This document shows positions 14,767 to 33,851 of a stretch of DNA of 64,000 bases, one piece after another; positions within the stretch are counted from its first letter, which is position 1; each line of letters begins with the position of its first letter. The notes beneath the pieces were generated by a model. The model was not told the DNA's origin. It was given only the letters and a program-made list of their open reading frames with translations, and searched no databases. A program made the translations under genes and the position numbers. This DNA comes from Roseobacter sp. HKCCD6576-2 (lineage in GTDB: Bacteria > Pseudomonadota > Alphaproteobacteria > Rhodobacterales > Rhodobacteraceae): NCBI RefSeq assembly GCF_013179285.1, contig NZ_WVNW01000003.1:310001-374000 (forward strand), read 5' to 3'.

Positions 14767-15555
14767 TTAGACCGTCCCGCCGAGCGACCCCTCCAACGCG
14801 ACAAGCTCTTGCCCGCCGGCCATGAGATCTTGCAGCTCTTCGGGCGTGATCTGGCCACGCTGTGCGGTGCCCAAGGTCTTGCCGCGATTGAGCACGGTAA
14901 ACCGATCACCGACGGCCAGCGCGTGGCGCACATTATGGGTGATGAACACCACCGCGATGCCCTGTTTCCGCACCTTGTCGATGGTCGCCAGAACATTGGC
15001 CGTCTGCCGCACACCAAGCGCCGAGGTCGGCTCGTCCAGGATCAACACTTTGGCACCGAAATGCACGGCGCGGGCAATGGCCACTGTCTGTCGCTCCCCG
15101 CCAGAGAGCGTTCCGACGGCTTGATCCGGTCCGCGCAGGTTGATGCCCATCTTCTTCATCTCGGCCATGGTCACGTCATTGGCGTGCTCATGGTCGAACA
15201 TCTTGATCGGCCCGATTTTCTTGATCGGCTCGTTGCCCATGAAGAAATTCCGGCTGACCGACATCAGAGGGATCATTGCAAGGTCTTGATAAACCGTGGC
15301 GATCCCCGCCGAGATCGCATCGCGCGGATCGTCGAATTTCAGCGGTTGGCCTTCGAAGAAGATCTCACCTTTGGTCGGCTTGTGAACGCCGGACATGGTC
15401 TTGATAAAGGTCGATTTTCCGGCACCATTATCACCCAGAAGGCAATGGCATTCGCCTGGATAGACCTCCACAGTCACCCCGGCCAGTGCGATGACACTGC
15501 CGAAATGCTTCTCGATATTCTTCATCTCGACGATGGGGGCATGTTCGGGATTCAT
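14767..15555 (-). CDS. Sugar ABC transporter ATP-binding protein (FrcA-like), probable myo-inositol importer
   Basis: A 262-residue single-domain ATPase with Walker [11 protein letters not shown]-loop [10 protein letters not shown], signature [13 protein letters not shown], Walker [13 protein letters not shown] and switch His in [10 protein letters not shown]. It is half the size of the duplicated RbsA/XylG ATPases and most like FrcA of the rhizobial fructose system. It is the third gene of a minus-strand operon (binding protein, permease, ATPase). That operon's promoter region carries the same 18-bp palindrome as the inositol catabolic promoter, so myo-inositol or a related cyclitol is the more likely substrate than fructose (inference). 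Confidence 0.85.
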
Positions 15556-15556
15556 C

Positions 15557-16669
15557 TCAACGCTCCCCCGTGATGATGCGGCGAATATAGGTGTTCAGGA
15601 TCACCGCGAAGAGCAGGATGACGCCCAGGAAGACCCGGAAAAGCGAGCTTTCGACGCCCGCGAAGAAGAGGCCCTGTTGCACGACCCCGAAGATCAGCGC
15701 GCCAAGCGCGGCGCCTACGACCGATCCATATCCCCCGGTCAGAAGCGCGCCACCGATCACGACTGCGATAATCGCTTCAAACTCTTTCAGCACGCCCCGG
15801 TCGGCGCCCGCAGAGCCAAACTCCATCACCTGACATGTGGCGAAGACGGCAGCGCAGAACGCGGTGAACATAAACATCTGGATTTTCACCCGGTTCACGG
15901 GAACGCCGACATAGCGGGCGGCTTGCGCATCGCCACCTGCGGCAAAGACCCAGTTGCCAAATCGTGTGCGGGTCATCACGAAATGCCCAAAAATCACCAG
16001 GCCGATGGCCCAGACAATCAACATCGGCAAGCCATCGATCACCGGCTCGCCTGCCCGGTTGCCGCGCTCAAATGTGTCGATGAGGCCGATATCGGCCAGC
16101 CAGACGAAGATTGGCCCACCGATCTCGCCGCCAAAGAGAGACGCCAGCCAGTCACCTTCAGCTGCGTCGTCAATGCCGCCGATGATGGTGCGACGTTCGA
16201 TGGTTTGGGGAAAGAAGATGGTGAAGCCGCGCAGGATGAAGAGTGCGGCAAGGGTGACGATGAAGCTTGGCAAGCCAGTCTTGATCACGATGTAGCCGTT
16301 CAGCGCCCCAATCGAGATACAGATCGCGAAGGTGATCAAGATCGCCATCCACACGGGCCAACTCAGCGTGACTGAGAAGATCGCGATGGACATGCCGGCA
16401 AAACCGATCATCGAGCCGACCGAGAGATCAAACTCGCCCGCGATCATCAGCATACAGGCGCCAACCGCGATAATCATGAACTGCGCCGAAACGGTGGACC
16501 AGTTCATGATGCCCTGGGCGTTGAACATGCCACTATCGGACGCGAATAGGATGAAGAAGGTGAAGACGGCGATGGTGCCGACGATCCCGCCCAATTCGGG
16601 CCGGATCAGCGCCCGGCGAATGCCTGACATTTCCTTAATGCGTTCGTCTTGCGTTGCCGCCTCAGACAT
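15557..16669 (-). CDS. Sugar ABC transporter permease (FrcC-like), probable myo-inositol importer
   Basis: A 370-residue BPD_transp_2-type permease with about eight to ten hydrophobic segments. The stretches [16 protein letters not shown] and [21 protein letters not shown] are diagnostic for carbohydrate-uptake-2 permeases. A loop of about 60 residues ([18 protein letters not shown]...) in the middle is characteristic of the FrcC group. The start at 16669 has a good Shine-Dalgarno (GGGAGGGAG) directly upstream; the longer frame to 16684 would include it. It ends one base before the ATPase gene and lies downstream of a hairpin that separates it from the binding-protein gene. Confidence 0.87.
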
Positions 16670-16710
16670 ATCTCTCCCTCCCAAGAAATCCCGATGGCCG
16701 GGAACAAAAA

Positions 16711-16758: not shown

Positions 16759-17709
16759 TCAGCGGAACTCGCCGGCGTATTCTTCGACCAATTCCAGCCC
16801 ATCAGCGGTGATGAAACCGGGGCCCGAGTTGATGTTATTGCCCGGCAGCACGCCATAGCGGTGGTAGTTGGTCAGCACGACAACCGGCAGATAAGCCTGC
16901 AAGAAGGGCTGCTGATCGATGCCCCACTCGATGACGCCATCACGAATGCCTTGAACGATGTTGTCGCCCAGATCGAAGGTGCCGAAATAGATGTCCCCGG
17001 CCATACCGTTGGATTCCAGCGCCAGGATGGTCGGGTCGGCCGAGGTCGGCCCGAGGGTCAGGATGGCGTCGGTGTCCGGGTTGCTGTTCAGATAGGCCAG
17101 AACCCGGTTCTGGATCTCCGACGGGTCGGTGCCGCTGTCGATCATCGAGTCGCCCAGATCGACGCCCAAACCATCGGCAAAGCCCTGGCAACGCTCGGCC
17201 ACAACCGGGTTCGAGATCACATGGTTCACGCAGAGGAACGAGGTGACGCCGTCACGCGCCGCGCGCTGACCTGCGGCCAGGCCCGCGTCATATTCCGGCT
17301 GACCGACATACATTAGCGCGCCGACTTCCGCGGCCTGCTCCGGAGTGCCGGAGTTCATGATGATCACGTCAATGCCCGCATCCACGGCAGCCTGGATCGG
17401 CTCGCGCAGCACGTCGAAATCGGCAAGCGTGGTGATGATCCCGTCGGGGCCGGAGGCGGTGGCCTGTTCAATGATCCGCGCCATATCGGCAATGTCGCCA
17501 CTGGTTGGGTTGCGATACTCAACCTCGACACCCATTTGATCGCCCGCCAGCGCCAGAGCGTTGCGGATCGTATTCCACCAGCTGTCGCTATCGGGGGCGT
17601 GGCTGACCAACACATAGCGTTCGCCCTCAGCGGCGGCCTGACCGGCCACCAAGACCGGCGCGGCGGCGACCAAAGCGGTCAGCGCGACGGTTTTCAAAAA
17701 TGATTTCAT
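16759..17709 (-). CDS. Periplasmic sugar-binding protein (ribose/fructose-type, Peripla_BP_4), probable cyclitol binding
   Basis: A 316-residue exported solute-binding protein. The signal peptide is MKSFLKTVALTALVAAAPVLVAG with cleavage probably after AAAEG or QAAA. The mature protein has RYVLVSHAPDSDSWWNTIRNAL and DGIITTLADFDVLREPIQAAVDAGIDVIIMNSG, the sugar-binding type I periplasmic fold. The start at 17709 is chosen because it begins a perfect signal peptide and has GGGAGGAAATC upstream; the open frame extends to 17964 through the promoter. It is the first gene of the importer operon, divergent from the LacI regulator, with the palindromic operator between them. Confidence 0.87.
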   Translation of the reverse strand: MKSFLKTVALTALVAAAPVLVAGQAAAEGERYVLVSHAPDSDSWWNTIRNALALAGDQMGVEVEYRNPTSGDIADMARIIEQATASGPDGIITTLADFDVLREPIQAAVDAGIDVIIMNSGTPEQAAEVGALMYVGQPEYDAGLAAGQRAARDGVTSFLCVNHVISNPVVAERCQGFADGLGVDLGDSMIDSGTDPSEIQNRVLAYLNSNPDTDAILTLGPTSADPTILALESNGMAGDIYFGTFDLGDNIVQGIRDGVIEWGIDQQPFLQAYLPVVVLTNYHRYGVLPGNNINSGPGFITADGLELVEEYAGEFR

Positions 17710-17796: not shown

Positions 17797-17814
17797 TTTG
17801 CAACCGGTTGCAAA
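17797..17814. promoter_or_regulatory. 18-bp perfect palindrome, probable LacI-family operator (iol regulon copy 1)
   Basis: TTTGCAACCGGTTGCAAA, with the central CG typical of LacI/PurR-type operators. It lies 87 bases upstream of the binding-protein start and 82 bases upstream of the lacI-type gene. The identical 18-mer occurs again at 22125-22142 in front of iolD. Confidence 0.85.
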
Positions 17815-17899: not shown

Positions 17900-18898
17900 A
17901 TGGCTGTCACCCTCAAAGATGTTGCTGAACGCGCCGGTGTGTCCCGCTCTGCGGTCTCGCGCACCTTTACAGAAGGGGCGTCCGTCTCGGAGAAGACGCG
18001 CCGGAAGGTGGAAAAGGCCGCTGACGAGTTGGGCTACAGCCCCAATGCGCTCGCCTCCAGTTTGACGACCGGGCGGACCAAGCTGATCGGGCTGGTCTCC
18101 AACAACTTCCACAATCCGATTTTCTTGGAAGTCTTCGATCTCTTCACGCGGGGGTTGCAAGAGCGGGGTTTGAGGCCGCTCTTGGTCAATCTGAGCGATG
18201 AGATCGACCCGGCCAATTCGGTCCGGATGCTGCGGCAGTATTCGGTGGATGGGGTGATCGTCGCGTCCTCAACACTACCGCCTAGCTTTTCCAAGGCGTT
18301 CCGCGACGCTGGCGTGCCGGTGGTGCATTCCTTTGGCCGCCGGTCGAGCACGCCAGAGGTGCATGTGGTGGGCATCGACAACCAGGAATGCGGGCGGATG
18401 GCAGGGCGAACCCTGGTCGATCGCGGCTATACCCGCGTCGCGTTTCTGGGCGGGCCGGAGCGCGCCACGTCGACCCAAGACCGATTTGCCGGGTTCATGG
18501 ATGTGATGCGCGCGCATCCCGAAATTGAGGTGAGCCACAGTTTCGCGTCGGACTATTCCTTCGATGCGGGCCGTGTGGAGATGACGAAACAGCTGATGAC
18601 TGACCCGGCGCAGGCTTACTTCTGCGGCGACGATGTTTTGTCGATTGGGGCGTTGAGCGCCGTTGAGGATGCTGGCCTGTCGGTTCCGGGCGATGTCGGG
18701 CTAATCGGATTGAACGATATGGAGATGGCGCGGTGGGAGAATATCGATCTCACCACCATCCGGCAGCCGATCCCCGAGATCATCAATTCCTCGATTGATC
18801 TGGTGGTGGCGACCGTGGACAAGCCCGATCGCACACCGGAGGCGCGGCTGTTCCCGTGCGAGATCGTTGAGCGCGGGACGCTGCGGCCCCTGACCTAA
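17900..18898 (+). CDS. LacI family transcriptional regulator, probable inositol regulon repressor
   Basis: A 332-residue LacI/GalR regulator. The N-terminal HTH reads LKDVAERAGVSRSAVSRTFTEGASVS with the hinge NALASSLTTGRT at about 50-60. Residues 62-330 form the periplasmic-binding-protein-like effector domain ending in DLTTIRQPIPEII. It lies divergent to the importer operon with a perfect palindrome in between; the same palindrome precedes the catabolic genes. The likely role is therefore repression of import and catabolism, relieved by inositol or an early intermediate. Autoregulation is also possible given the operator position. Confidence 0.87.
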   Translation: MAVTLKDVAERAGVSRSAVSRTFTEGASVSEKTRRKVEKAADELGYSPNALASSLTTGRTKLIGLVSNNFHNPIFLEVFDLFTRGLQERGLRPLLVNLSDEIDPANSVRMLRQYSVDGVIVASSTLPPSFSKAFRDAGVPVVHSFGRRSSTPEVHVVGIDNQECGRMAGRTLVDRGYTRVAFLGGPERATSTQDRFAGFMDVMRAHPEIEVSHSFASDYSFDAGRVEMTKQLMTDPAQAYFCGDDVLSIGALSAVEDAGLSVPGDVGLIGLNDMEMARWENIDLTTIRQPIPEIINSSIDLVVATVDKPDRTPEARLFPCEIVERGTLRPLT

Positions 18899-18906
18899 CG
18901 GCTTTG

Positions 18907-20064
18907 CTACCGAAACATGGGCGGGCGCGCATCGACCCATGCACCCTCTGCCTTGCCGCTTTCGGCCACTGCGAAGACCGCGGCCATGGAGCGCAATCCG
19001 TCGGCGGCGCGCGGATAAAGATCTGCGGCCGGGTCCATCGGCCGCCCTTCTTTTTCCGCACGAATGGCTTCCGCCAAGTCTTTGTAGATATTGGCAAATG
19101 CCAAAGGCATCCCTTCCGCATGGCCAATGGTGACGCGGGTTGTGCGATCAGCCTCGGGGCTCAAGCCCGCTTCGCCGCGTTCGATGATCTGAAGACGCTC
19201 GCCCAGTGGCATATAGTAAAGCTGGTTCGGCTGTTCCTGCGACCATCTCAGCCCGCCAGTTTCGCCGAAGACTTGGATGCCGAGTCCGTGCTGCCGCCCT
19301 ATCGCAACCGAGGAGGTCCAGAGCCGCCCAACCGCACCGCCGGACATGCGGAAATTCACCATCGCGTCGTCTTCCAACACACGGCTTTCAATGGCTGACA
19401 CCGTGTCAGCACTGAGCCGGTCGACCTCTTGGCCGGTGACGAAGCTGGCCATATGCATCGCATGGATACCGCAATCGGCAAACTGAGCCGAGACCCCGGC
19501 CTGCGCCGGATCATAGCGCCAACGAACGCGGGGGTTGTCGGCATCAGCGGCATCCGCGTGATGGCCATGAGCGAACTCGGCGACGACCAGGCGGATCTTG
19601 CCCAGATCGCCGCGCGCAATCATCGCTTTCATATGGCGCACGAGGGAATAGCCAGAATACCCGTAATTCACCGCGCAGATTTTGCCGGTCGATTGAGAGA
19701 GGCGCACAATCTCTTCGCCTTCCTCGACCGTCATCGTCATCGGTTTTTCGCAGAGGACGTGGAAACCGCCCTCCAAGAAGGCTTTGGTGATCTCGAAATG
19801 GGTCGCGTTTGGCGTCGCGACCGTCACCAGATCGACCGGATCGGGCCGTGCCATTTCGCCCGCCAGCATCTCGCGCCAATCGCCGTAAGACCGATCCGCG
19901 GCCAGCTCAAGCGTTTGCCCATAAGCGCGGCCAGCATCGGGCCGATGGTCCAAAGCGCCTGCCGTGAACGCGAACTCGCCATCCAGCCCCGCGCCCAAGC
20001 GATGCGCAGGTCCGATTTGGCTGCCTTCGCCGCCGCCGATCATGCCCCAGGTGAGTTTTGCCAT
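18907..20064 (-). CDS. Gfo/Idh/MocA family oxidoreductase (385 aa), inositol-locus paralogue 1
   Basis: An NAD(P)-dependent dehydrogenase with the Rossmann start KLTWGMIGGGEGSQIGPAHR, the family lysine motif in HVLCEKPMTMTVEEG, and a substrate-domain motif FADCGIHAMHMASFVTG with the expected catalytic His. At 385 residues it is longer than IolG. The GGGEGSQIG N-terminus is a subgroup often found in rhizobial and roseobacter inositol loci. It could oxidise or reduce a cyclitol (scyllo-inositol, chiro-inositol or an inosose). The frame is open to 20235, but the ATG at 20064 begins the Rossmann fold directly. It is the last gene of a three-gene unit with the IolE-like gene and a second MocA-like gene. 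Confidence 0.8.
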   Translation of the reverse strand: MAKLTWGMIGGGEGSQIGPAHRLGAGLDGEFAFTAGALDHRPDAGRAYGQTLELAADRSYGDWREMLAGEMARPDPVDLVTVATPNATHFEITKAFLEGGFHVLCEKPMTMTVEEGEEIVRLSQSTGKICAVNYGYSGYSLVRHMKAMIARGDLGKIRLVVAEFAHGHHADAADADNPRVRWRYDPAQAGVSAQFADCGIHAMHMASFVTGQEVDRLSADTVSAIESRVLEDDAMVNFRMSGGAVGRLWTSSVAIGRQHGLGIQVFGETGGLRWSQEQPNQLYYMPLGERLQIIERGEAGLSPEADRTTRVTIGHAEGMPLAFANIYKDLAEAIRAEKEGRPMDPAADLYPRAADGLRSMAAVFAVAESGKAEGAWVDARPPMFR

Positions 20065-20080
20065 GGTCGGTATCCTTTGA

Positions 20081-20971
20081 TCAAAAGCCGATGGAGGAGA
20101 GGTATTCCCGATTGGCGCGCGCATCGCCAATCGGATCGGGGTCGAGCAGCGGGTCGCAATCCTGCTCCACCGTGCACCAGCCCTCAAACCCGGCGTCGAG
20201 CAGAACTTGCCGGACGGCAGGGAAATCCACATCACCCTGGCCCAGATTGCAGAAAATGCCTTGGCCGCAGGCGTCGTAAAACCCAGTGCGCTTGGCGATA
20301 ACGTCGGCTTTCACAACCGGGTCTATATCTTTGAAATGCATATAGGAAATCCGATCCATGTGGCGTTTCATAAAGGCCACGGGATCAAAGCCGGCATAAG
20401 AATGATGCCCGGTGTCGAAGCAGATTCTCAGAATGCTCTCATCCACTTCATCCAGGAGGCGCTCCAGTTCCGGCTCGAAATCCATGAAGCCTGCCGCATG
20501 AGCATGGATGCCAACTGTCAAACCATAGTCTTCGGTCCCCATTTTCGCGATGGTGGCGATGCGGTCGCGATAAGCGGCCCATTCGGCGGTGCCCATCTGC
20601 TCGGCCTCGTCAGCCCGACCCGCTGTGGGCGCGCGGCGTGGCGAGATCGAGTCGATTAGCACCAGATGTTCCGCGCCATGCGCAGTGAGTGCTTTGCAGG
20701 TGCGCACCGCGCCATCCATCACATCCTCCCAAGCGTCGGGATCATGGAACGCCCGGAACACCACGCCGCCGATCAACTCAAGATCATGTTCGGCCAGCGC
20801 CTCGGCCAAAATCGCGGGGTCCTCGGGCATGAAACCCACCGGGCCCAGTTCGATGCCTTTATAGCCCGCGGCGGCGCAGTCTTTCAGAACCGATTGCCAG
20901 GTAGGGTTGCGCGGGTCATCCGCGAATTCCACACCCCAGGAACAGGGCGCATTGCCAATGCGTATCGTCAT
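20081..20971 (-). CDS. iolE: IolE/MocC-like TIM-barrel enzyme, probable inosose dehydratase
   Basis: A 296-residue AP-endonuclease-2-type TIM barrel (sugar phosphate isomerase/epimerase fold). The metal-site features include HAHAAGFMD, CFDTGHHSYAG and YMHFKDI. The C-terminus (GQGIFCNLGQGDVDFPAVRQVLL, then EGWCTVEQDCDP) closely resembles the IolE pattern of G-x-F...G-G..DF...L..GW...E.D.DP. IolE removes water from 2-keto-myo-inositol to give the dione that IolD cleaves. MocC of rhizopine catabolism has the same fold, so a methylated or aminated inosose is an alternative. No other iolE candidate is present in the window. Confidence 0.7.
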   Translation of the reverse strand: MTIRIGNAPCSWGVEFADDPRNPTWQSVLKDCAAAGYKGIELGPVGFMPEDPAILAEALAEHDLELIGGVVFRAFHDPDAWEDVMDGAVRTCKALTAHGAEHLVLIDSISPRRAPTAGRADEAEQMGTAEWAAYRDRIATIAKMGTEDYGLTVGIHAHAAGFMDFEPELERLLDEVDESILRICFDTGHHSYAGFDPVAFMKRHMDRISYMHFKDIDPVVKADVIAKRTGFYDACGQGIFCNLGQGDVDFPAVRQVLLDAGFEGWCTVEQDCDPLLDPDPIGDARANREYLSSIGF

Positions 20972-20983
20972 GTCCGTACCTTT

Positions 20984-22099
20984 TCAGACAGAGGAGAGAG
21001 GGAGCCAGCGTCTCGCCTCGGAAGAGGCAATGGCGGCGGTCACGATGCGGTTGACCTCCATCCCGTCGCGGAATGTTGGCCAGACCGGTTGGCCGGTCTC
21101 AATGGCGGTCAAGAAATCCTTCGCCTCGATGATGATCTGGTCTTGATAGCCGGTGCCATGGCCCGGACCCTGACAGAACGGCAGATAGTCGGGATGGGCC
21201 GGGCCAGTCAGAATCTTGGTGAAGCCGCGTGTGGCCTCAGGGCCTTCGGCGCGATAGAGCCAGAGCGCATTCTGGTCCTCTTGATCGAAGCGGATCGCGC
21301 CTTTTGTGCCCGTGATTTCATAAGCATAGCCCATCTTCCGCCCTGTCGCGATGCGGCTGAAATACATGTGCCCCATGACGCCACTTTCAAACCGGCACAT
21401 GAGCTGCGCATGGTCATCATTGGTCACTTCTGCAGGGCCGCCCGCACCGCGCCGCGTCTTATGCACCGTTTCGACCTCGCCCATGACCTCGGCAATCGGG
21501 CCGATCAGAGCCAGCGCGGCGTTGATCATATGCGGGGCCAGATCGCCCATCGTGCCGTTCGCCATCCCAGAGGTGCGCCAATTGGCTGGCAGATCGGGGT
21601 CGGCCAGGAAATCTTCGGTATGCTCGCCACGGAACCAGGTCAGATCGCCAAGCGCGCCCTCGGCGATCAGTTGCCGGGCGAATTGCGTGGCGGGCGTGCG
21701 GACATAGTTGAAGCCCACCATATTGGTGATACCCGCAGCTTCGGCAGCGGCCACCATGGCGCGGCTATCATCAAGAGAGGCGCCCAGAGGTTTTTCGCAA
21801 AGCACCGGTTTGCCCAGAGCAAATGCAGCTTCCGCGATCTGCCGATGCATGGATTGCGGCGCGGCGATCACGATGGCCTCAACCGTTGGATCGTTGACCA
21901 AGACCGGCCAATTATCGGTGGCCCGGGCAAAACCATAGGCCTGTCGGTACCTTTCGGCGCTTTCCTGCGAGGTCGCGCAGACCATCTCCAGCCGGGGCCG
22001 AAGGGCGGTGTTGAAGACCGCCCCGACAGAGGCCATCGCCACAGCATGGGCCTTGCCCATATAGCCGCCGCCGACAATTCCGATCCCAATTTCCGTCAT
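20984..22099 (-). CDS. Gfo/Idh/MocA family oxidoreductase (371 aa), inositol-locus paralogue 2
   Basis: An NAD(P)-binding dehydrogenase: GIGIVGGGYMGKAHAVAM at the N-terminus, KPVLCEKPLGASLDDSRAMV as the EKP motif, then GTMGDLAPHMINAALALIG with the catalytic His. The HYMGKAHAVA type and length match the MocA-like/scyllo-inositol or 'IolW/IolX-type' side of the family, though assignment between these is uncertain. The start at 22099 fits the beginning of the Rossmann fold; the frame extends through the operator to 22141. It is the first gene of a minus-strand trio, divergent from iolD, and 26 bases from the second copy of the palindrome. Confidence 0.8.
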   Translation of the reverse strand: MTEIGIGIVGGGYMGKAHAVAMASVGAVFNTALRPRLEMVCATSQESAERYRQAYGFARATDNWPVLVNDPTVEAIVIAAPQSMHRQIAEAAFALGKPVLCEKPLGASLDDSRAMVAAAEAAGITNMVGFNYVRTPATQFARQLIAEGALGDLTWFRGEHTEDFLADPDLPANWRTSGMANGTMGDLAPHMINAALALIGPIAEVMGEVETVHKTRRGAGGPAEVTNDDHAQLMCRFESGVMGHMYFSRIATGRKMGYAYEITGTKGAIRFDQEDQNALWLYRAEGPEATRGFTKILTGPAHPDYLPFCQGPGHGTGYQDQIIIEAKDFLTAIETGQPVWPTFRDGMEVNRIVTAAIASSEARRWLPLSSV

Positions 22100-22124
22100 G
22101 GGCCATGCCTTTTTTGAAATACGG

Positions 22125-22142
22125 TTTGCAACCGGTTGCAAA
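22125..22142. promoter_or_regulatory. 18-bp perfect palindrome, probable LacI-family operator (iol regulon copy 2)
   Basis: TTTGCAACCGGTTGCAAA, identical in all 18 positions to 17797-17814. It sits between the divergent MocA-like gene (start 22099) and iolD (start 22228), well placed to control both directions. Confidence 0.87.
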
Positions 22143-22227
22143 ACTAGTATCTTCAGATTCGACGCGACGCAATGGCCAAAAGACAGGGCCGCTCGTCGGA
22201 CCCCTATGATGACACCCGGGAGGAGAG

Positions 22228-24099
22228 ATGAGCGCCAGCCCCAAAACGGTCCGTTTGACCATGGCTCAGGCTATTGTGCGGTATTTGTCAGCACAGTTCA
22301 TCGAGATTGATGGGGTGAAGACCCGGATCTGTGGCGGTGGTTTCGGCATTTTCGGCCATGGCAACGTGCCATGCCTGGGGGAGGCGCTCTATGGGGTGCA
22401 GGATATTCTGCCGCTTTACCGGGGGCAGAATGAGCAGAGCATGGGGTTCGCGGCGGCGGCCTATGCGAAGTATCACCTGCGGCGGCGGTTCATGTTTTGC
22501 ACCGCAAGCGCCGGGCCGGGCACGGCGAACTTGTTGACCGCGGCGGCGCTGGCCCATGCCAACCGTTTGCCGATGCTGATGCTCTGCGGCGATACGTTTA
22601 TCACCCGTTTGCCAGACCCGGTGCTGCAGCAGTTGGAGCATTTTGGCAACCCGACGCTTGGGGTGAATGATGCGTTCAAAGCGGTCAGCCGGTATTGGGA
22701 TCGGATCACCCATCCGGCGCAGATCATCCAGTCGTTGCCGGCGGCTCTTGCCATGATGCTGGATCCCGCCGATTGCGGCCCGGCCTTCCTTGGGCTGCCG
22801 CAGGATGTGCAAGGCTGGGCCTATGACTACCCCGAGGATTTCTTTGCCGAAAGAACACACCGTATTCGCCGCGTTGCGCCCGATGCCGGTGAGGTGGCGG
22901 AGGCCGCGGCGGTATTGAAGGCCGCCAAACGTCCGATGATCATCGCAGGCGGCGGGGTGCAGTATTCCGGCGCGGTGGCGGAACTGACCGCGTTTGCCGA
23001 GACGCATCAGATCCCGGTGGTCGAAAGCATCGCGGGGCGGGCGAATATGCTGGCCACCCATGATCTGAACATCGGCCCGATTGGCGTGACGGGCTCCGAC
23101 AGCGCCAATACGATTGCCGAGCAGGCGGATGTGATCCTCTCGGTCGGGTGCCGGATGCAGGACTTCACGACGGGATCCTGGACCGCCTTTGCCCATGACG
23201 CGAAACTGGTGTCGCTGAATGTCGGGCGGCATGACGCGGGCAAGCATATGTCCTTGCCGATGGTCGGGGACGCAAAACTCGGGCTTCTGACGCTTGGCGT
23301 AGCGATGCACGGCTATACCGCGCCCGAAAACTGGACCGCCAGCGCCCGCGCAGAGCGGGCCAAATGGGATGCCTATGTGGCGGAGAATGTCACACCTGGA
23401 AACCGGCCCAACTCTTACGCCCAAGCGATAGGCGTAGTGAACGATCTCTGCGATCCGCGCGACCGTATTGTGGCGGCGGCAGGTGGGTTGCCTGCCGAGG
23501 TGACCGCCAATTGGCGCACCCTGGATATCGGGACGGTCGATGTGGAATTCGGTTTTTCTTGCATGGGTTATGAGATCGCAGGCGGGTGGGGCGCGCGGAT
23601 TGCCCAATCGAAGGCGGAGCCTGAGCAAGACACCATCGTTTTCACCGGTGACGGCTCTTATCTCCTAATGAACTCCGACATCTATTCTTCGGTTCTGACA
23701 GGGAAAAAATTGATCATCCTCGTCCTCGACAACGGCGGCTTCGCGGTGATCAACAAGTTGCAGAACAACACCGGCAACGAGAGTTTCAACAACCTGATTG
23801 CCGATTGCCCAACGGTGCCCGAGCCATTCGCGGTGGATTTCGAAGCCCATGCGGCAGCGATGGGCGCCCATGCCGAAACGGTCGCCAATCCTGCCGAGTT
23901 GGCGGAGGCCTTCAAACGTGCCAAGGCGGCAGAGAAGACCTTCGTCATCGTCATGAAGGTCGATGCCTATGACGGCTGGACCACGGAGGGCCATGCGTGG
24001 TGGGAAGTGGGTACGCCGGAAGTATCAGACAGCGCCAAGGTGCGGGCGGCCCATGAAGATTGGGAATCGAACCGGCCCAAACAGCGCAAAGGGATCTAA
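22228..24099 (+). CDS. iolD: 3D-(3,5/4)-trihydroxycyclohexane-1,2-dione acylhydrolase
   Basis: A 623-residue thiamine-diphosphate enzyme that opens the ring of trihydroxycyclohexane-1,2-dione to 5-deoxyglucuronate. The N-terminal Pyr domain has GGGFGIFGHGNVPCLGEAL and RGQNEQSMGFAAAAYAKY, with the conserved Glu for ThDP activation. The C-terminal PP domain has the GDGSYLLMNSDIYSSV...LDNGGFAVINKLQNN ThDP/Mg motif. The IFGHGN..GLGEAL pattern is highly specific for IolD within the acetolactate synthase superfamily. GGGAGGAG directly precedes the ATG. It heads the plus-strand catabolic operon iolD-phyH-iolC-iolB-iolJ-iolG. Confidence 0.93.
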   Translation: MSASPKTVRLTMAQAIVRYLSAQFIEIDGVKTRICGGGFGIFGHGNVPCLGEALYGVQDILPLYRGQNEQSMGFAAAAYAKYHLRRRFMFCTASAGPGTANLLTAAALAHANRLPMLMLCGDTFITRLPDPVLQQLEHFGNPTLGVNDAFKAVSRYWDRITHPAQIIQSLPAALAMMLDPADCGPAFLGLPQDVQGWAYDYPEDFFAERTHRIRRVAPDAGEVAEAAAVLKAAKRPMIIAGGGVQYSGAVAELTAFAETHQIPVVESIAGRANMLATHDLNIGPIGVTGSDSANTIAEQADVILSVGCRMQDFTTGSWTAFAHDAKLVSLNVGRHDAGKHMSLPMVGDAKLGLLTLGVAMHGYTAPENWTASARAERAKWDAYVAENVTPGNRPNSYAQAIGVVNDLCDPRDRIVAAAGGLPAEVTANWRTLDIGTVDVEFGFSCMGYEIAGGWGARIAQSKAEPEQDTIVFTGDGSYLLMNSDIYSSVLTGKKLIILVLDNGGFAVINKLQNNTGNESFNNLIADCPTVPEPFAVDFEAHAAAMGAHAETVANPAELAEAFKRAKAAEKTFVIVMKVDAYDGWTTEGHAWWEVGTPEVSDSAKVRAAHEDWESNRPKQRKGI

Positions 24100-24103
24100 G
24101 CCC

Positions 24104-24943
24104 ATGTTGAGTGTCACCGCAGAGACCGCTGATCCGGCCACGATTGTGGCGGAGTTGCTCCATGGTGATGGCGCGGTGCGGATTACCGGGCTGTTCTCCG
24201 ACGCGCAGATTACCGAAGCCCGCGCGATCATTATGGCGGAATCCGAAGTCGACACGCAGAAAGTTACGCATTTCCAAGGGGCTGCGGAGGAAAGCGGCCA
24301 ATTGAACTTGCAGCGGCGCGTCTGGAACCTTCTGGCCAAGGGCGAGGTGTTTTCGCAGATGGCGGCGCATCCGGTGCTGATGGCCGTGTTACGCCAGTTT
24401 CTGGGCAGCGAATTCATCATGGGCTCCATCGCCGCAAACCGGATCTTGCCGGGCGGGCCGGGGCAGGAGCCGCATGTGGATTACCCATATTGGGATTTTC
24501 ATACGCCGGAGACGCATCCCATTGGCCTGAATGCCAGCTTTCCGATGAACGCGCAGGTGTCGATCCTCCTCGACCCGTTCACAGAGGAAAGCGGTGCAAC
24601 CGCCTATCTGCCGGGCAGTCAGCGGGAGCTGCGCTATCCGGCCGAGGCGGACGGGTTCTTTGATCGCTGCGAGCGGATGCTGGGCGACCCGGGCGATGTG
24701 GTGATTTTCTATGGAGCGGTCTGGCATTGCGCGATGCCAAACACCGCCGATCATGATCGCTCCGCGGTTCTGACCCAATACCTGCCCAAATGGGTGAAGC
24801 CGATGGAAGACATGCCCGCAGCCTTGCCCGCAGAGTTTGTGGCGGCGGCCAGCCCAGATCTGCGGCAGCTTCTTGGGCTCAATTACCCCTATCCCGAAGT
24901 GCTGGACGCGGCCAAGGCGGGTAATACCGAGGGGCGGGTGTGA
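24104..24943 (+). CDS. Phytanoyl-CoA dioxygenase (PhyH)-family Fe(II)/2-oxoglutarate oxygenase
   Basis: A 279-residue non-haem iron oxygenase-like protein. The facial triad is visible as HVD (His124, Asp126) in QEPHVDYPYW, with the distal His208 in AVWHCAMPN. Arg219 in HDRSAVLTQYLPKW could bind 2-oxoglutarate. It is embedded in the iol operon, 4 bases after iolD and overlapping iolC by one base (TGATG). It is not part of the standard inositol pathway, so it probably acts on a modified cyclitol (hydroxylation or oxidative O-demethylation; inference). The open frame begins earlier, but the first ATG after iolD is natural. Confidence 0.78.
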   Translation: MLSVTAETADPATIVAELLHGDGAVRITGLFSDAQITEARAIIMAESEVDTQKVTHFQGAAEESGQLNLQRRVWNLLAKGEVFSQMAAHPVLMAVLRQFLGSEFIMGSIAANRILPGGPGQEPHVDYPYWDFHTPETHPIGLNASFPMNAQVSILLDPFTEESGATAYLPGSQRELRYPAEADGFFDRCERMLGDPGDVVIFYGAVWHCAMPNTADHDRSAVLTQYLPKWVKPMEDMPAALPAEFVAAASPDLRQLLGLNYPYPEVLDAAKAGNTEGRV

Positions 24944-25911
24944 TGGACCTTTCCGGTAATAGCTTTGTGATCATCGGTCGCGCGGGGATGGATTTCTATC
25001 CCGACCCGCCAGGCACCAAAACCGAAGAGGCCGCGCGCTTTGTGTCCTGTCTTGGCGGGTCGTCGGCGAATATTGGGGTGGCCATCACCAAACAAGGCGG
25101 CAAGGCGGCGCTAGTCACGCGGGTGTCCGACGACGCGATTGGTCGCTTCGCGGTCAATGAGTTGGAGAAATATGGGATTGATCATGCCCATGTGCGCCCG
25201 GTGGGAGGCGAGGCGCGCACCTCTCTGGCCGTGGTCGAAACCCGGATCGAGGACCACCAATCGGTCATCTACCGCAACGGCGCTGCCGATTTCGAGATGA
25301 CGACGAGCGACGTCGACGCGGTTGATTATGCAGCCTATTCGGCGCTGATCACCACCGGAACCGTGTTTGCCGCAGAGCCCTCTCGCAGCGCGACATTTCA
25401 CGCCTTCGATCTGGCCAAAGCCGCCGGGCTCCCACTGATTTTCGACATTGATTATCGGCCGTATTCGTGGCCCTCGGCGGAGGTGGCGGCGGATGTCTAT
25501 TCCCGCGCCGGGGCCATGTGCGACGTGATTATCGGCAATGACGTGGAGTTCGGCTTCATGGCGGGGGATTACGATAAAGGGCTCGAAAAGGCCCGGTCGC
25601 TTGTGGCCGACGGCGCGCAGATTGTCGTTTACAAAATGGGCGAAAAGGGCGCGGTCACAATCACGCCCGAGCGTGAATTCCGCACCGGGATCTACCCGGC
25701 CAATGCGCTGAAACCCACCGGCGCGGGGGACAGTTTCATGGGCGGGTTTATCGCCGCGCTGGCCGCCGGGCGCGATGTGGAAGACGCCGTGCTGCGCGGC
25801 TCGGCCTCCGCCGCGATTGTCGTCTCGCGCGTCGGTTGCGCGCCCGCCATGCCCACCACCGAAGAATTGGAGGCATTCCTCGCCTCCCATGCCGGGCCGA
25901 CAGCGGCCTGA
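24943..25911 (+). CDS. iolC: 5-dehydro-2-deoxygluconokinase
   Basis: A 322-residue PfkB-family kinase that phosphorylates 2-deoxy-5-keto-gluconate in inositol breakdown. The N-terminus FVIIGRAGMDFYPDP followed by FVSCLGGSSANIGVAITKQGGKAALVTRVSDDAIG is the IolC signature. The second PfkB signature is KPTGAGDSFMGGFIAAL with the catalytic Asp. ATG 24943 overlaps the PhyH stop (TGATG), indicating coupled translation. Length agrees with the family. Confidence 0.9.
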   Translation: MDLSGNSFVIIGRAGMDFYPDPPGTKTEEAARFVSCLGGSSANIGVAITKQGGKAALVTRVSDDAIGRFAVNELEKYGIDHAHVRPVGGEARTSLAVVETRIEDHQSVIYRNGAADFEMTTSDVDAVDYAAYSALITTGTVFAAEPSRSATFHAFDLAKAAGLPLIFDIDYRPYSWPSAEVAADVYSRAGAMCDVIIGNDVEFGFMAGDYDKGLEKARSLVADGAQIVVYKMGEKGAVTITPEREFRTGIYPANALKPTGAGDSFMGGFIAALAAGRDVEDAVLRGSASAAIVVSRVGCAPAMPTTEELEAFLASHAGPTAA

Positions 25912-25925
25912 AAGGACCCAGAAAC

Positions 25926-26768
25926 ATGCATATCCCGCCCTTTGACAATCAGAACAGACCCATCGTCGATGTGGATCATGATCTGGTGCCGCTGAACTAT
26001 TTCAACATTGTGAAGCTCAAGGCCGGGGAGCATTTCGATTATGCGGTGCCGGGCTATGAGACTTGCGTGGTTCCCGCGACTGGGACGGTGACGGTTGAGG
26101 TGGCGGGCGAGACTTATCGCCATATCGGCAATCGCACAGTGGATGTCTGGGATGGCGAGCCGGAGGGCGTTTATGTTCCGACCGGTGAGGGCACGCGGAT
26201 CACCTGCCAAACAGAGGCCGCTGAGGTGTTCATTGCCGGTGCGAAATACGATGAGGTTCTGAAGCCCTTCGCCGTGCGCGAGGCGGAGCTGGATTTGGTC
26301 CAATACGGCTCTGACGACACCAAAACCCATCGCAAAATCAAACACATCCTGGGCGCGGGGTATCACGACCGGGTGGGGCGGCTTTTGGTCTCCGAGCTTT
26401 ATACCGTGGGGCAGGGTGGCTGGTCCGGCTTCCCGAGCCACAAACATGACACCGACCGTCTGCCTGATGAGACGCGCCATGACGAGACCTATAATTTCCG
26501 GTTCAAACCGAATTACGGGTCGGGCATGCAGATGTTGCAGCGTGTCGATAATGAGCCGGGCGATGCGTACCACATCGTCGATGGGTCCACGATTCTGATC
26601 GATAAGGGGTATCACCCCTGCGCCGTGCTACCCGGCTATGAGATGTATTATTTCACCATTCTGGGTGGGCTGAGCCAGCGCAGCTTGAAGCAATATTTTC
26701 AGCCGACCCATGAGGCGCAGCTTCATACCATTCCCGGCATCATGGATATGGTGGCCAAGTTCAAATGA
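25926..26768 (+). CDS. iolB: 5-deoxy-glucuronate isomerase
   Basis: A 280-residue bicupin enzyme that isomerises 5-deoxyglucuronate to 2-deoxy-5-keto-gluconate. Diagnostic segments are GWSGFPSHKHDTD with metal-binding His residues, HDETYNFRFKPNYGSGMQMLQR and GYHPCAVLPGYEMYYFTILGG. It begins 14 bases after iolC, and its end overlaps the aldolase gene by 4 bases (ATGA). The length matches the IolB family. Confidence 0.92.
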   Translation: MHIPPFDNQNRPIVDVDHDLVPLNYFNIVKLKAGEHFDYAVPGYETCVVPATGTVTVEVAGETYRHIGNRTVDVWDGEPEGVYVPTGEGTRITCQTEAAEVFIAGAKYDEVLKPFAVREAELDLVQYGSDDTKTHRKIKHILGAGYHDRVGRLLVSELYTVGQGGWSGFPSHKHDTDRLPDETRHDETYNFRFKPNYGSGMQMLQRVDNEPGDAYHIVDGSTILIDKGYHPCAVLPGYEMYYFTILGGLSQRSLKQYFQPTHEAQLHTIPGIMDMVAKFK

Positions 26769-27604
26769 CGCTTGTGACCCTGTCGGAGGTTGTGCAACCC
26801 GCGCTCAAGGGCGGCTATGCGGTGGCTGGCTTGGTCTGTCTGGGCTGGGAAGATATGCGCGCCTATGTGGCGGCGGCGGAAGCTGAGCGGGCACCGGTGA
26901 TTTTGCAGGCCGGGCCAAGCTGCCGGGAGCATACCCCGCTGCCGGTTTTGGGAAAGATGTTCAGGTATTTGGCGGACAGTGTTGACGTCCCCGTCGTGGC
27001 GCATCTGGACCATGGATACACGCTCGAAGAGTGCCGAGAGGCGATCGAGTCTGGGTTCTCTTCTGTCATGTTTGATGGGTCTCGGAAGACCCTGACTGAG
27101 AATATTGCCGAGACCGCCGCGATTGCCGAAATGGCGCATGCGGCAGGCGTATCTTGCGAGGGCGAGATCGGCTTTGTCGGTTATTCCGGAGGCGAGATGT
27201 CAGCAGGCACCGACCCAAGCGAGGCGGCGCAGTTTGCCCGCGAAACGGGGGTCGACGCCATGGCGATCTCGGTCGGCAATGTGCATTTGCAACAAGATCG
27301 GGAAGGCGGTTTGGACGAGCCCCGCATCCGGGCGATTGAGGCGCTGACGGAGGTGCCCTTGGTGATCCATGGCGGATCAGGCGTGCCTTTGGCGCAGCGT
27401 GAGGCGCTGGCCGCCGGTTCCAGCATCTGCAAATTCAATATCGGGACGGAATTGCGCATGGCCTTTGGTGCCGCGCTGCGCCAAGCGGTCACTGCAGATC
27501 CAGATCGGTTTGATCGGGTGCAGATTTTGAAAGAGACACATGATCCGGTGATGGATGCCGCGCGCGTGGCGATCCGGGCCGTCGGGGCCAGCGGGCGAGG
27601 GTAG
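26765..27604 (+). CDS. iolJ: Class II fructose-bisphosphate aldolase family, probable 2-deoxy-5-keto-gluconate-6-phosphate aldolase
   Basis: A 279-residue zinc-dependent class II aldolase. Signature segments are VPVVAHLDHGYTLEECREAIESGFSSVMFDGS (first aldolase signature with zinc His) and CEGEIGFVGYSGGEMSAGTDPSEAAQFARETGVDAMAISVGNVH. The C-terminal VIHGGSGVP and KFNIGTELR motifs are also present. In this operon the expected reaction is cleavage of 2-deoxy-5-keto-gluconate-6-phosphate to dihydroxyacetone phosphate and malonate semialdehyde. Many alphaproteobacteria instead use an IolC-fused aldolase domain, so the separate IolJ-type gene is informative. It overlaps iolB by ATGA. Confidence 0.82.
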   Translation: MTLVTLSEVVQPALKGGYAVAGLVCLGWEDMRAYVAAAEAERAPVILQAGPSCREHTPLPVLGKMFRYLADSVDVPVVAHLDHGYTLEECREAIESGFSSVMFDGSRKTLTENIAETAAIAEMAHAAGVSCEGEIGFVGYSGGEMSAGTDPSEAAQFARETGVDAMAISVGNVHLQQDREGGLDEPRIRAIEALTEVPLVIHGGSGVPLAQREALAAGSSICKFNIGTELRMAFGAALRQAVTADPDRFDRVQILKETHDPVMDAARVAIRAVGASGRG

Positions 27605-27608
27605 AGCG

Positions 27609-28604
27609 ATGTTGAGATTGGGAATTCTGGGTTGCGGCCGGATCGGCCAGGTACATGCCCAATCGATTGGCCAAGTGCCCAATGCAGAGTTGGTCGCCGT
27701 GGCCGATGCGATGCCCGCAGCAGCGGATGCGCTTGCGTCCGCGAGTGGGGCGGAAGCCCGGGCGGCGGAGGATATTCTGGGCGCGGGCGATATCGATGCC
27801 GTGGTAATCGGCACGCCGACAGATACCCATTTCGACTTGATCCAGGCGGCTGCCGCCAATCGGAAGGCGGTTTTCTGCGAGAAGCCGATCGATATGGATG
27901 TGGCCCGCATCCGCGCCTGCATAGACGCGGTCGAGGCTGCAGGGGTCGCCTTTATGTCGGGCTTCAACCGTCGGTTCGATCCGAATTTCGCCGGGTTGCA
28001 GCGGCGTTTGCGGGAAGGCGAGATTGGTGAGGTCGAGATTGTGACGATCCTCTCGCGCGACCCATCTCCGCCGCCGATCTCTTACATCGAAAGCTCCGGC
28101 GGGCTGTTCCGCGATATGATGATCCATGATTTCGACATGGCGCGGTTTTTGCTTGGTGAAGAGCCGGTGCGGGTACAGGCGGTCGGCGCGGCGCTGGTCG
28201 ACCCGGCAATTGGGGCCGCAGGCGATGTGGATACCGCCGCAGCGATCCTAACCACGGCCTCGGGGCGGATTTGCCAGATTTCCAACTCGCGCCGGGCGAC
28301 ATATGGCTATGATCAGCGGATCGAAGTGCATGGCGCGAAAGGTCTGCTCAAAGCCGAAAACCAGTTGGAAAGCACCGTGGAATTGGCCACCGAAGCCGGG
28401 TTCCGTCGCGCCCCAACGCAGCATTTCTTCCTCGAACGATATGCGCAGGCATATGTGTTGGAACTGGCGGAGTTTGTCGGCGCCGTGCTGGATGGCAAGG
28501 CACCGGCGCCCAGCATTCACGATGGCCTCCGCGCCCAAGCCCTGGCCGATGCGGCGGATCTGGCGCTTCGCGAAGCGCGGCTGGTCGAGGTGGATCTGAC
28601 CTAG
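27609..28604 (+). CDS. iolG: myo-inositol 2-dehydrogenase
   Basis: A 331-residue Gfo/Idh/MocA enzyme that oxidises myo-inositol to 2-keto-myo-inositol. The N-terminus [19 protein letters not shown] is the standard IolG/Idh start. [12 protein letters not shown] carries the catalytic Lys, and [22 protein letters not shown] carries the catalytic Asp/His pair. It is the last gene of the catabolic operon, 4 bases after the aldolase, and overlaps the convergent hutU end by 4 bases. Of the three Gfo/Idh/MocA genes in the locus this is the best IolG candidate. The final pathway enzyme (methylmalonate-semialdehyde dehydrogenase, IolA) is not in the window. Confidence 0.88.
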
Positions 28605-30271
28605 CCGAGAATACCCGGCAGGCGTAGCCCGTGTTCTGTGGCGCAATCCCGGGCGATTTCATAGCCGGCATCGGCGTGGCGCATCACGCCGGTGGCCGGA
28701 TCGTTCCAAAGCACGCGTTCCAACCGCCGGTCGGCATCCTCGGTGCCGTCGCAGACCACGACCATGCCGGAATGCTGTGAGAAGCCCATGCCGACGCCGC
28801 CGCCGTGGTGCAGACTGACCCAAGTCGCACCGCTGGCGGTGTTGAGAAGCGCGTTTAGAAGCGGCCAATCGCTGACCGCGTCGGAGCCATCTTTCATCGC
28901 CTCGGTCTCCCGGTTCGGGCTGGCCACCGAGCCGCTGTCCAGATGGTCGCGCCCGATCACCACCGGCGCGGACAGTTCGCCCGTCCGCACCATTTCGTTA
29001 AACGCGAGCCCGGCGCGGTGGCGGTCTCCGAGGCCGATCCAGCAGATCCGCGCGGGGAGGCCTTGGAACGCAATCCGCTCCTGCGCCATGTCGAGCCAGT
29101 TGTGCAGATGGGCATTCTCAGGGAAGAGCTCTTTCATCTTGGCATCGGTTTTGTAGATATCCTCCGGATCGCCCGACAGGGCGCACCAGCGGAACGGGCC
29201 AATGCCCTTACAAAACAGCGGGCGGATGTAGGCGGGCACGAAACCTGGGAAAGCGAAGGCGTTTTCCAGGCCTTCCTCCAGCGCCACTTGGCGAATGTTG
29301 TTGCCGTAATCCAAGGTCGGCACGTCGGCGTTCCAGAAATCCACCATCGCGGCCACATGGGTTTTCATGCTGGCCCGCGCGGCGGCCTCGACCGCTTTTG
29401 GATCACTCTCCTGTTTCTCGCGCCACTCAGCCACGCTCCAGCCTTGCGGCAGATAGCCATGGATCGGGTCATGGGCGCTGGTCTGGTCGGTCACCATATC
29501 GGGCCGGACGCCGCGCCGGTAAAGCTCGGGGAAGACATCGGCTGCATTGCCGATCAAGGCCACGGATTTCGCTTCGCCGGCCTTGATCCAGCGCGCGATC
29601 ATCGCGAGCGCTTCGTCGAGATCATGCGTCTTTTCATCGACATAGCGGGTGCGCAGGCGGAAATCGGCCCGGGTTTCGTCGCATTCCACGGCGAGGCAAC
29701 TGGCGCCCGCCATAACGGCAGCCAGCGGTTGCGCGCCCCCCATGCCGCCCAGGCCGGCGGTCAGAAGCCAGCGGCCCTTGAGATCGCCGTCATAATGTTG
29801 TCGCCCGGCCTCGGCGAAGGTCTCATAGGTGCCCTGCACGATGCCTTGGGTGCCGATATAGATCCACGATCCGGCGGTCATCTGGCCGTACATCGCGAGG
29901 CCGCGCTTATCCAGCTCGTTGAAATGGTCCCAAGTCGCCCAATGCGGCACCAAGTTGGAATTGGCGATCAGCACACGCGGCGCATCCTTTTGGGTGCGGA
30001 AGATGCCCACCGGTTTGCCCGACTGCACCAGAAGCGTTTCATCCTCTTCCAAGTCGGTCAGCCCGGCGACAATCCGGTCAAAATCCTCCCAGGTGCGCGC
30101 GGCACGGCCAATGCCGCCATAGACCACCAACTCATGCGGGTTTTCGGCCACGTCCGGATGCAGATTGTTCATCAGCATCCGCATCGGGGCCTCCGTCAGC
30201 CAGGATTTCGTGGTGATGTCCGGGCCGGTTGGGGGGAAGACGTCACGGGTGTTGTGGCGGGGATTGGTCAT
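28601..30271 (-). CDS. hutU: Urocanate hydratase
   Basis: A 556-residue NAD-dependent urocanase converting urocanate to imidazolonepropionate, step two of histidine degradation. Characteristic segments are [32 protein letters not shown] near the start, [20 protein letters not shown] in the Rossmann part, the active-site region [30 protein letters not shown] with the conserved Cys, and [21 protein letters not shown]. The length is exact for the family. It overlaps hutG by ATGA and is the distal gene of the hutIHGU operon. Confidence 0.96.
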
Positions 30272-31068
30272 GGAGAGCCTCGCAGAGTTGGGGCCAGCCG
30301 AGCCAGCGCATGCAGGATATTGGAGAGAACCGGGCGGAGCACGGCGGCTTTGGCGCGGTCAAAGGCCCAAGGCGGGGCCTCGGTACTCAGATAGGTGGAT
30401 TGTGCCAGTTCCATCTGGATCGCGTGGTAGCCCTCGCTCGGCCGCCCGTAATGGCGCGTGGTCCAGCCGCCTTTAAAGCGGCCATTCAGAACTGTGCTAT
30501 AGCCATCGGCCCTTTGGCAGATTTCGTCAGTGGCGGTTTCGATCTCTGGCGCACATGTCATACCGCCATTCGTGCCGATGTTGAGATCCGGCAGCGTGCC
30601 CTCGAATAGAAATGGGATCGGAGATCGGATCGAGTGGCAATCATACAAGATCGCCACGCCGTGCAGGTCGCGCACCCGGGCCATCTCGGCGGTGAGCGCC
30701 GCATGGTAAGGCGCGTGAAAACGCTCCTGTCGGTCGGCGATGTCGGCGTCATTCGGTGGCTCGGTCCAGATCGGTCGCCCATCGAAATCGGTCAACGGCA
30801 CCAGCGTGGTCGTGTTCTGCCCCGGATAGAGGCTCGCGCCCGAGGGGTCGCGATTGGCATCGATGACATAGCGATGGACATTGGCGCGAACCGTCGTCGC
30901 GCCGGGCAGAAGGCCGTCATACAGCCGATCCACATGCCAATCGGTATCGGCCAGAGCGCGCCCGGTGTCATTGAGCTTGGCCCAGATCTTGGGCGGAACA
31001 TCGGTTCCGGCATGGGGCAGGCCCAAAATGACCGGGCTGTCCCCCTGGCTGACAGTCACGATGGTCAT
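30268..31068 (-). CDS. hutG: N-formylglutamate deformylase
   Basis: A 266-residue N-formylglutamate amidohydrolase (FGase family) that releases formate and glutamate in the last step of the five-step hut pathway. Family features visible are [47 protein letters not shown] and [27 protein letters not shown]. The presence of hutF upstream agrees with this route, rather than the formimidoylglutamase route that gives formamide. It overlaps both hutH and hutU by ATGA. The formate produced could be handled by the formate dehydrogenase genes at the end of the window (inference). Confidence 0.92.
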
Positions 31069-33772: not shown

Positions 33773-33808
33773 CAAGGGCGACTCACTTGCGAAGAGACGT
33801 GGTTGCGA

Positions 33809-33828
33809 TAATATGTATATACATATTA
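33809..33828. promoter_or_regulatory. 20-bp perfect palindrome, probable HutC operator
   Basis: TAATATGTATATACATATTA is perfectly symmetric and contains the TGTATATACA core expected for HutC/GntR-type repressors. It lies in the 79-base gap between the divergent hutI (start 33772) and hutF (start 33852) genes, so one dimer could control both operons. It is also strikingly AT-rich for this genome and probably overlaps a -10 region. Confidence 0.88.
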
Positions 33829-33851
33829 AATCGGTCAAGATGAGGATCGGG

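Follow-up and report, generated by a model that had tools for sequence, protein, structure and literature searches.

A phytanoyl-CoA dioxygenase-like gene of bacterial inositol loci as an optional accessory that may admit modified cyclitols

Roseobacter sp. HKCCD6576-2 carries an inositol catabolism (iol) locus in which the gene for an Fe(II)/2-oxoglutarate oxygenase of the PhyH type, here called PhyH-A, is placed between iolD and iolC. The locus lies in a 64,000-nucleotide stretch of contig NZ_WVNW01000003.1 (assembly GCF_013179285.1, positions 310,001 to 374,000 of the forward strand), which is referred to below as the window and is numbered from its first letter. Comparison of related loci indicates that PhyH-A is an optional accessory of inositol catabolism, and the chances seem about evenly poised that it acts as an entry enzyme oxidising a modified cyclitol, most likely under the control of a LacI-family regulator. 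The flow of a modified cyclitol into the iol pathway is the best reading because PhyH-A goes along with inositol catabolism from genome to genome and has a scyllo-inositol-dehydrogenase-like enzyme as its partner. A preliminary description of this DNA had also proposed the use of modified inositols; that proposal survives on these two grounds, while the arguments originally offered for it, from MocA- and MocC-like genes and from rhizopine catabolism, do not.

PhyH-A matches the Pfam family PF05721 with an E value of 4e-23 (83.2 bits against a gathering cut-off of 22). Its ATG at 24104 stands 4 nt past the iolD stop codon and its own stop codon (24941-24943) shares 1 nt with the iolC ATG at 24943, which bears out the coupling between iolD and iolC that had been claimed. 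The oxygenase site given in the preliminary description (His124, Asp126, His208, and Arg219) is likewise correct in its numbering, and all four residues are unchanged in 92 of 92 aligned rows. A structure model with a predicted local distance difference test score (pLDDT) of 84.7 has the PhyH fold, superposing on FtmOx1 (7etk) with Z 27.4 and a root-mean-square deviation of 2.2 over 236 residues, and on KanJ with Z 22.1; as far as the model goes, such searches settle the fold of PhyH-A and not its substrate. For the closest relative by sequence in the PDB, "DhiD" (8zyb), the literature search gave no paper naming a function. Other PhyH relatives on plasmids of Tistrella, Mycetohabitans, and Xanthobacter sit amid non-inositol genes. 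The Xanthobacter flavus plasmid pDCA holds a different PhyH gene near a haloalkane dehalogenase gene (L223, 5758-6600), and an Ancylobacter plasmid similar to pDCA is also among the matches listed.

The comparison covered the best 80 of 123 relatives from named genomes. In 63 of these loci the PhyH-A orthologue stands directly beside iolD and/or iolC, which excludes chance placement. A further 15, from Luteibacter, Rhodanobacter, Inquilinus, and a record named Mycobacterium sp. KBS0706, have PhyH-A adjoining a MocA2-like gene and away from any iol genes, and the two genes are divergent in all 15 loci of this type that were long enough; L075 is too short to classify, and L088 has PhyH-A alone. 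The Mycobacterium record (L053) groups with Inquilinus and is probably a misnamed or contaminated assembly. Where PhyH-A is located away from iol genes, the genome still possesses an iolD above the cut-off in 12 of 12 cases (in five further genomes the two are linked). Family-wide samples, whose probabilities ignore shared ancestry, comprised 295 genomes for the window's family and 147 for the Luteibacter family (G297). In the latter, 10 of 10 PhyH-A genomes contain iolD against 23 of 147 overall (P 1e-9, relatedness ignored), four of these ten being also among the 12 unlinked genomes, and in one genome of another family (G692) an unlinked PhyH-A is accompanied by an iolD on another contig. 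In the window's family all eight PhyH-A genomes contain iolD against 151 of 295 overall, a figure that adds little because PhyH-A and iolD are adjacent there and linkage is simply counted again. The insertion is discrete: the iolD-iolC gap is 5-53 nt in 18 loci without PhyH-A and 830-930 nt in loci with it. On an iolD tree of 78 loci (60 with and 18 without PhyH-A, a cleaned count), gain and loss of PhyH-A require at least 13 changes, seven of which are forced by starred branches.

The promoters of these loci suggest how the oxygenase may be controlled. Each of the two divergent promoters of the window locus contains TTGCAACCGGTTGCAA; TTGCAANNNNTTGCAA has just two copies in the 4.4 Mb genome, and these are the operator sites of the window. 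In the 15 unlinked loci the stretch separating PhyH-A from the MocA2-like gene contains a sister motif, TTGCAAGCGCTTGCAA. It was found exactly once in each of 11 of 11 Luteibacter/Rhodanobacter/Inquilinus-type genomes examined and was absent from the twelfth genome examined (G306), which is of another type, and from seven fetched iol loci of unlinked-type genomes (L191-L196 and L200). In these genomes the unlinked PhyH-A and its scyllo-inositol-dehydrogenase-like neighbour look like a small separate regulon. A LacI-family protein encoded near PhyH-A in Luteibacter (L059) is 51% identical to that of the window, and we infer that LacI proteins bind these predicted operators. The genes surrounding PhyH-A in Luteibacter, Rhodanobacter, Inquilinus, and L088, which include those for a peptidase, esterases, a tRNA synthetase, a sulfatase, a Kelch protein, and others, name no substrate.

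The iol locus of the window is real and extends beyond the span first described, with an ATP-binding cassette (ABC) transporter and a LacI-family gene on one side and iolC, iolB, an aldolase gene, and iolG on the other. Its features are as follows.

14767..15555, minus strand: ABC transporter ATPase (Pfam ABC_tran), which adjoins the locus in many Rhodobacterales relatives
15557..16684, minus strand: ABC transporter permease (Pfam BPD_transp_2)
16759..17709, minus strand: sugar/inositol-type substrate-binding protein, start judged from the open reading frame (NCBIfam rhizopine-binding model 272 bits, cut-off 420)
17798..17813, no strand: LacI-type operator TTGCAACCGGTTGCAA, site 1, in the divergent promoter of the binding-protein and LacI genes; operator-like by sequence
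17900..18898, plus strand: LacI-family regulator (Pfam LacI and Peripla_BP_3)
18907..20064, minus strand: MocA1, a Gfo/Idh/MocA oxidoreductase (Pfam; PDB relatives)
20081..20971, minus strand: IolE/MocC-type inosose dehydratase (TIGR04379 174 bits, cut-off 290; PDB 3cny, IolE, E 3e-26)
20984..22099, minus strand: MocA2, scyllo-inositol-dehydrogenase-like, LgdA subfamily (PDB 5ya8, E 6e-94)
22126..22141, no strand: LacI-type operator TTGCAACCGGTTGCAA, site 2, in the MocA2/iolD divergent promoter; operator-like by sequence
22228..24099, plus strand: iolD (TIGR04377 791 bits, cut-off 715)
24104..24943, plus strand: PhyH-A, Fe(II)/2-oxoglutarate oxygenase of 279 aa (Pfam PhyH; invariant site; fold model)
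24943..25911, plus strand: iolC kinase (Pfam PfkB; place conserved in iol loci)
25926..26768, plus strand: putative iolB (conserved place; start judged from the open reading frame), named by position and presumed family
26765..27604, plus strand: class II aldolase, IolJ-like from its place in the locus (matches to NCBIfam class II aldolase models fall short of every cut-off)
27609..28604, plus strand: iolG, canonical inositol 2-dehydrogenase (TIGR04380 425 bits, cut-off 355)

Translations of the open reading frames place the most likely start of MocA1 at 20064, not 20235, and that of MocA2 at 22099, not 22141; searches with MocA2 used three extra N-terminal residues (to 22108). Both iolD and iolG exceed their NCBIfam cut-offs and the IolE-type protein, which is the only TIGR04379 match in the genome, falls short of its own, which means that annotation based on that cut-off would miss the dehydratase of the locus. 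Directly abutting iolG are genes resembling those of histidine utilisation (hut; 28601-35213), named by eye. The iolD genes of Rhodobacterales are of two kinds, scoring about 900 and about 800 bits, with differing neighbourhoods; some genomes hold both, an example being G262 (L188 and L189).

The gene set claimed for the minus strand, two Gfo/Idh/MocA genes flanking an IolE-type gene, is confirmed by Pfam and NCBIfam. MocA1 has its best PDB relatives in 3v5n, 7d5m, 7d5n, and 3dty (E 4e-85 to 8e-81), and MocA2 matches LgdA, the scyllo-inositol/L-glucose dehydrogenase of Paracoccus laeviglucosivorans (PMC5969746). Seven of the eight substrate and catalytic residues named for LgdA (PMC5969746) are retained in 108 of 108 MocA2 rows (Lys106, Tyr135, Glu165, Arg178, Asp191, His195, and His318, of which Lys106, Asp191, and His195 are catalytic), the eighth, LgdA Tyr163, being replaced by His in 98 rows and by Met in 10; some rows of this alignment repeat one locus, and L001, L002, and the outlying L169 and L171 were excluded beforehand. 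The preliminary description took the MocA- and MocC-like genes to point to modified inositols, an argument that the loci lacking the oxygenase do not support. In a comparison set of 20 loci of the window's family, chosen by similarity of iolD score and absence of PhyH-A, 17 keep the order MocA1-IolE-MocA2 / iolD-iolC-iolB-aldolase (with iolG next in line in 13), the remaining three (L166, L169, and L171) holding a more distant iolD, 52-56% identical; L198 is a further locus of the same order without PhyH-A. MocA1, IolE, and MocA2 as a partner set for PhyH-A were rejected on this ground. By hand comparison, 11 of the 17 genomes have PhyH-B, the second oxygenase clade treated below, somewhere; in the other six (G257, G120, G145, G171, G250, and G203) neither clade reaches the threshold applied. 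Given the conserved order in oxygenase-less loci, the LgdA match, and the sole IolE-family match, MocA1 and MocA2 are best read as the putative inositol dehydrogenases, and the MocC-like protein as the putative inosose dehydratase, of this locus type. On a MocA2 tree the MocA2-like genes of Luteibacter and Inquilinus form a separate clade, the sole use made of that tree, in which labels of short loci are partly wrong (L160 is the window locus minus PhyH; L150-L159 belong to the Luteibacter family and are labelled alpha).

PhyH-B is about 29% identical to PhyH-A and 45-80% identical among the first five members compared. It was detected in 63 of the 295 genomes of the window's family (E 1e-60 or better), 60 of which contain iolD, and the three that do not are 71, 73, and 84% complete. 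None of the eight PhyH-A genomes in this sample also carries PhyH-B (P 0.015 among genomes with iolD). In five loci with a higher-scoring iolD, PhyH-B follows iolD on the same strand at a distance of about 1 kb, in two of them (L181 and L183) between iolE and iolB by coordinates. Annotation was read for 12 loci of 47 records, picked mainly for being annotated. A LacI-family gene stands beside PhyH-B or its operon in nine of the 12, counting Pantoea At-9b, where the gene is labelled "substrate-binding domain-containing protein" and its product is 33-49% identical to other LacI proteins; a short-chain dehydrogenase/reductase (SDR) or Gfo/Idh/MocA gene directly adjoins PhyH-B in six, all with LacI as well. 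In Tsukamurella and Thioclava the PhyH-B module is inside the iol cluster, and a Sinorhizobium meliloti record has PhyH-B with a divergent LacI gene and an SDR gene. Every PhyH-A row (103 of 103) and every PhyH-B row (49 of 49), repeats included, has Trp74 and Asn75; among five further PhyH proteins, of which one is a partial sequence, none has Trp74 and one has Asn75. His56, Phe57, and Asp268 had also been considered as a signature of the two clades and were dropped when the sharing vanished on realignment.

In the proposed pathway a modified cyclitol would be taken up along with inositol and oxidised by PhyH-A with Fe(II), O2, and 2-oxoglutarate; this would give an ordinary inositol or inosose, the breakdown of which MocA2 and the iol enzymes could complete. 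That the substrate is a cyclitol we infer; removal of a methyl group is a guess. As a first guess, PhyH-A would oxidatively O-demethylate an O-methyl-inositol, for instance pinitol or ononitol, to yield free inositol, formaldehyde, succinate, and CO2; the guess is made because an inositol product could be oxidised by the paired dehydrogenase and because some plants are rich in O-methyl-inositols. Pinitol and ononitol occur widely in legumes (PMC8730688), and pinitol had the top concentration measured in Mimosa pudica root exudate, at 145 uM against 0.73 uM for inositol (PMC5789663). In independent expression data that may bear on this reading, nine genes of Ensifer adhaerens OV14 on Arabidopsis roots went down from day 1 to day 7 (PMC6637203). 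Six belong to inositol use or rhizopine-type uptake, encoding a rhizopine-binding protein, the ATPase and the permease of ABC type, a Gfo/Idh/MocA protein, an inositol 2-dehydrogenase, and 5-dehydro-2-deoxygluconokinase (iolC), and the remainder are two phage genes and one for a phytanoyl-CoA dioxygenase with a locus tag far from the others (PMC6637203). It may tentatively be suggested that inositol-degrading bacteria recruited a PhyH-type oxygenase at least twice, as clades A and B, to serve as an exchangeable module that in many cases brings a LacI regulator of its own and an NAD-dehydrogenase, and that this is the so far missing way in which bacteria demethylate or otherwise activate methylated inositols, pinitol and ononitol among them. 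Within the coverage of the literature search, which takes in few subscription journals, no paper was recognised on a bacterial 2-oxoglutarate oxygenase for inositol derivatives, and none was returned for phytanoyl-CoA dioxygenase with inositol and iolD. If true, a direct candidate for this route would be at hand in the oxygenase-dehydrogenase pair, which occurs in genomes from marine, soil, and rhizobial bacteria, and the "phytanoyl-CoA dioxygenase" label on these genes would be corrected.

Several observations weigh against this proposal. PhyH-A clusters weakly on the iolD tree (13 changes against a shuffled mean of 16.5), the G692 copy is without a MocA2-like neighbour, the one in L088 stands alone, apart from the iol locus of the same genome (L198), and in Caballeronia a replicon bearing only a fragment of PhyH-A is itself without iolD. 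For PhyH-B, linkage to iolD could be tested at 47 of 65 places, iolD places being incompletely listed, and 12 of these 47 are 20 kb or less from iolD; in six of the 12 annotated loci the LacI gene, the adjacent dehydrogenase gene, or both are missing. Compared with the LacI protein of the window, those encoded next to PhyH-B show 22-27% identity or give no match (three of eight), and no common operator was found before the PhyH-B genes of eight loci; as the regulators are dissimilar and share no operator found, the two oxygenases may differ in substrate. With regard to the outlying copies themselves, that of G692 (L218, 9455-10357) is 64% identical, with TetR and aldo/keto reductase genes near and no iol neighbour. 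Caballeronia sp. SBC1 and SBC2 keep the last part of PhyH-A (L214, 9001-9341; 59% identity, two pieces) as an apparent remnant; the SBC1 replicon searched, of 2 Mb, is without iolD, and another SBC1 replicon carries PhyH-B in the match listing.

Other functions fit parts of the same evidence. PhyH-A might hydroxylate a deoxy-inositol of the quercitol type to inositol, or oxidatively deaminate an inosamine, a lesser possibility by analogy that the locus and the dehydrogenase pairing accommodate equally well. KanJ, a PhyH-fold enzyme that carries out the oxidative deamination of an aminoglycoside, is a structural relative, but it is one of many and the last of the best 50 listed, below fungal enzymes, and no nitrogen-handling gene was noticed among annotated neighbours, in which no search aimed at one was made. 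It appears unlikely that PhyH-A instead takes a core-pathway intermediate or by-product, for repair or as an O2-dependent bypass step. Such a role would suit the tight iolD-PhyH-A-iolC coupling in the window and the constant company of iolD, linked or unlinked; against it, the Luteibacter-type operator precedes only PhyH-A and the MocA2-like gene and is missing from the seven core iol loci, the partner there is a dehydrogenase, expected upstream of the IolE step, and many otherwise identical loci do without PhyH-A. That last observation also agrees with a hitch-hiker acting on an unrelated substrate such as an acyl-CoA, as do the family name and the unrelated surroundings of PhyH-A in G692 and L088. 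Recurrence at the same site, the separate MocA2-like pairing behind a dedicated operator in other lineages, and the parallel association of PhyH-B make such a passenger without any cyclitol role very improbable.

Membership of PhyH-A in the pathway for rhizopine (3-O-methyl-scyllo-inosamine), the analogy drawn in the preliminary description, is the least credible of the alternatives, and the locus was rejected as a rhizopine (moc) locus. MocA-like, MocC/IolE-like, and rhizopine-binding-protein-like genes are on site, but they are the usual set of this iol locus type without PhyH-A, and the binding protein of the window is under its cut-off, as listed above. Three binding proteins of other inositol-type loci likewise fall below it, at 224-269 bits, which is not a clean control because all come from genomes or records with PhyH-A or PhyH-B. 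The published route, so far as described in the accounts consulted, uses the ferredoxin oxygenase complex mocDEF and MocR (PMC10107442; PMC5789663).

The preferred reading, a modified cyclitol oxidised by PhyH-A and passed to the iol enzymes, can be set beside four known systems. The solved PhyH-fold oxygenases FtmOx1, SptF, PrhA, and KanJ have the fold and the His-Asp-His/Arg site in common with PhyH-A, although they are about 20% identical to it and act on fungal secondary metabolites and an aminoglycoside. In the LgdA system lgdA is likewise inside a putative inositol gene cluster; it differs from MocA2 at Tyr163, and no oxygenase partner was noticed in its account (PMC5969746). With the alphaproteobacterial iol operon that imports inositol by an ABC transporter, the window shares iolD, iolC, iolB, iolG, an IolE-type gene, the transporter, and the aldolase, and differs in the added PhyH at the iolD-iolC junction, an IolE below the TIGR04379 cut-off, and two further Gfo/Idh/MocA genes. 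With mocRABCDEF it has in common Gfo/Idh/MocA and IolE/MocC-type enzymes and a related binding protein, whereas an Fe/2-oxoglutarate oxygenase takes the place of the mocDEF complex and a LacI-family neighbour that of MocR.

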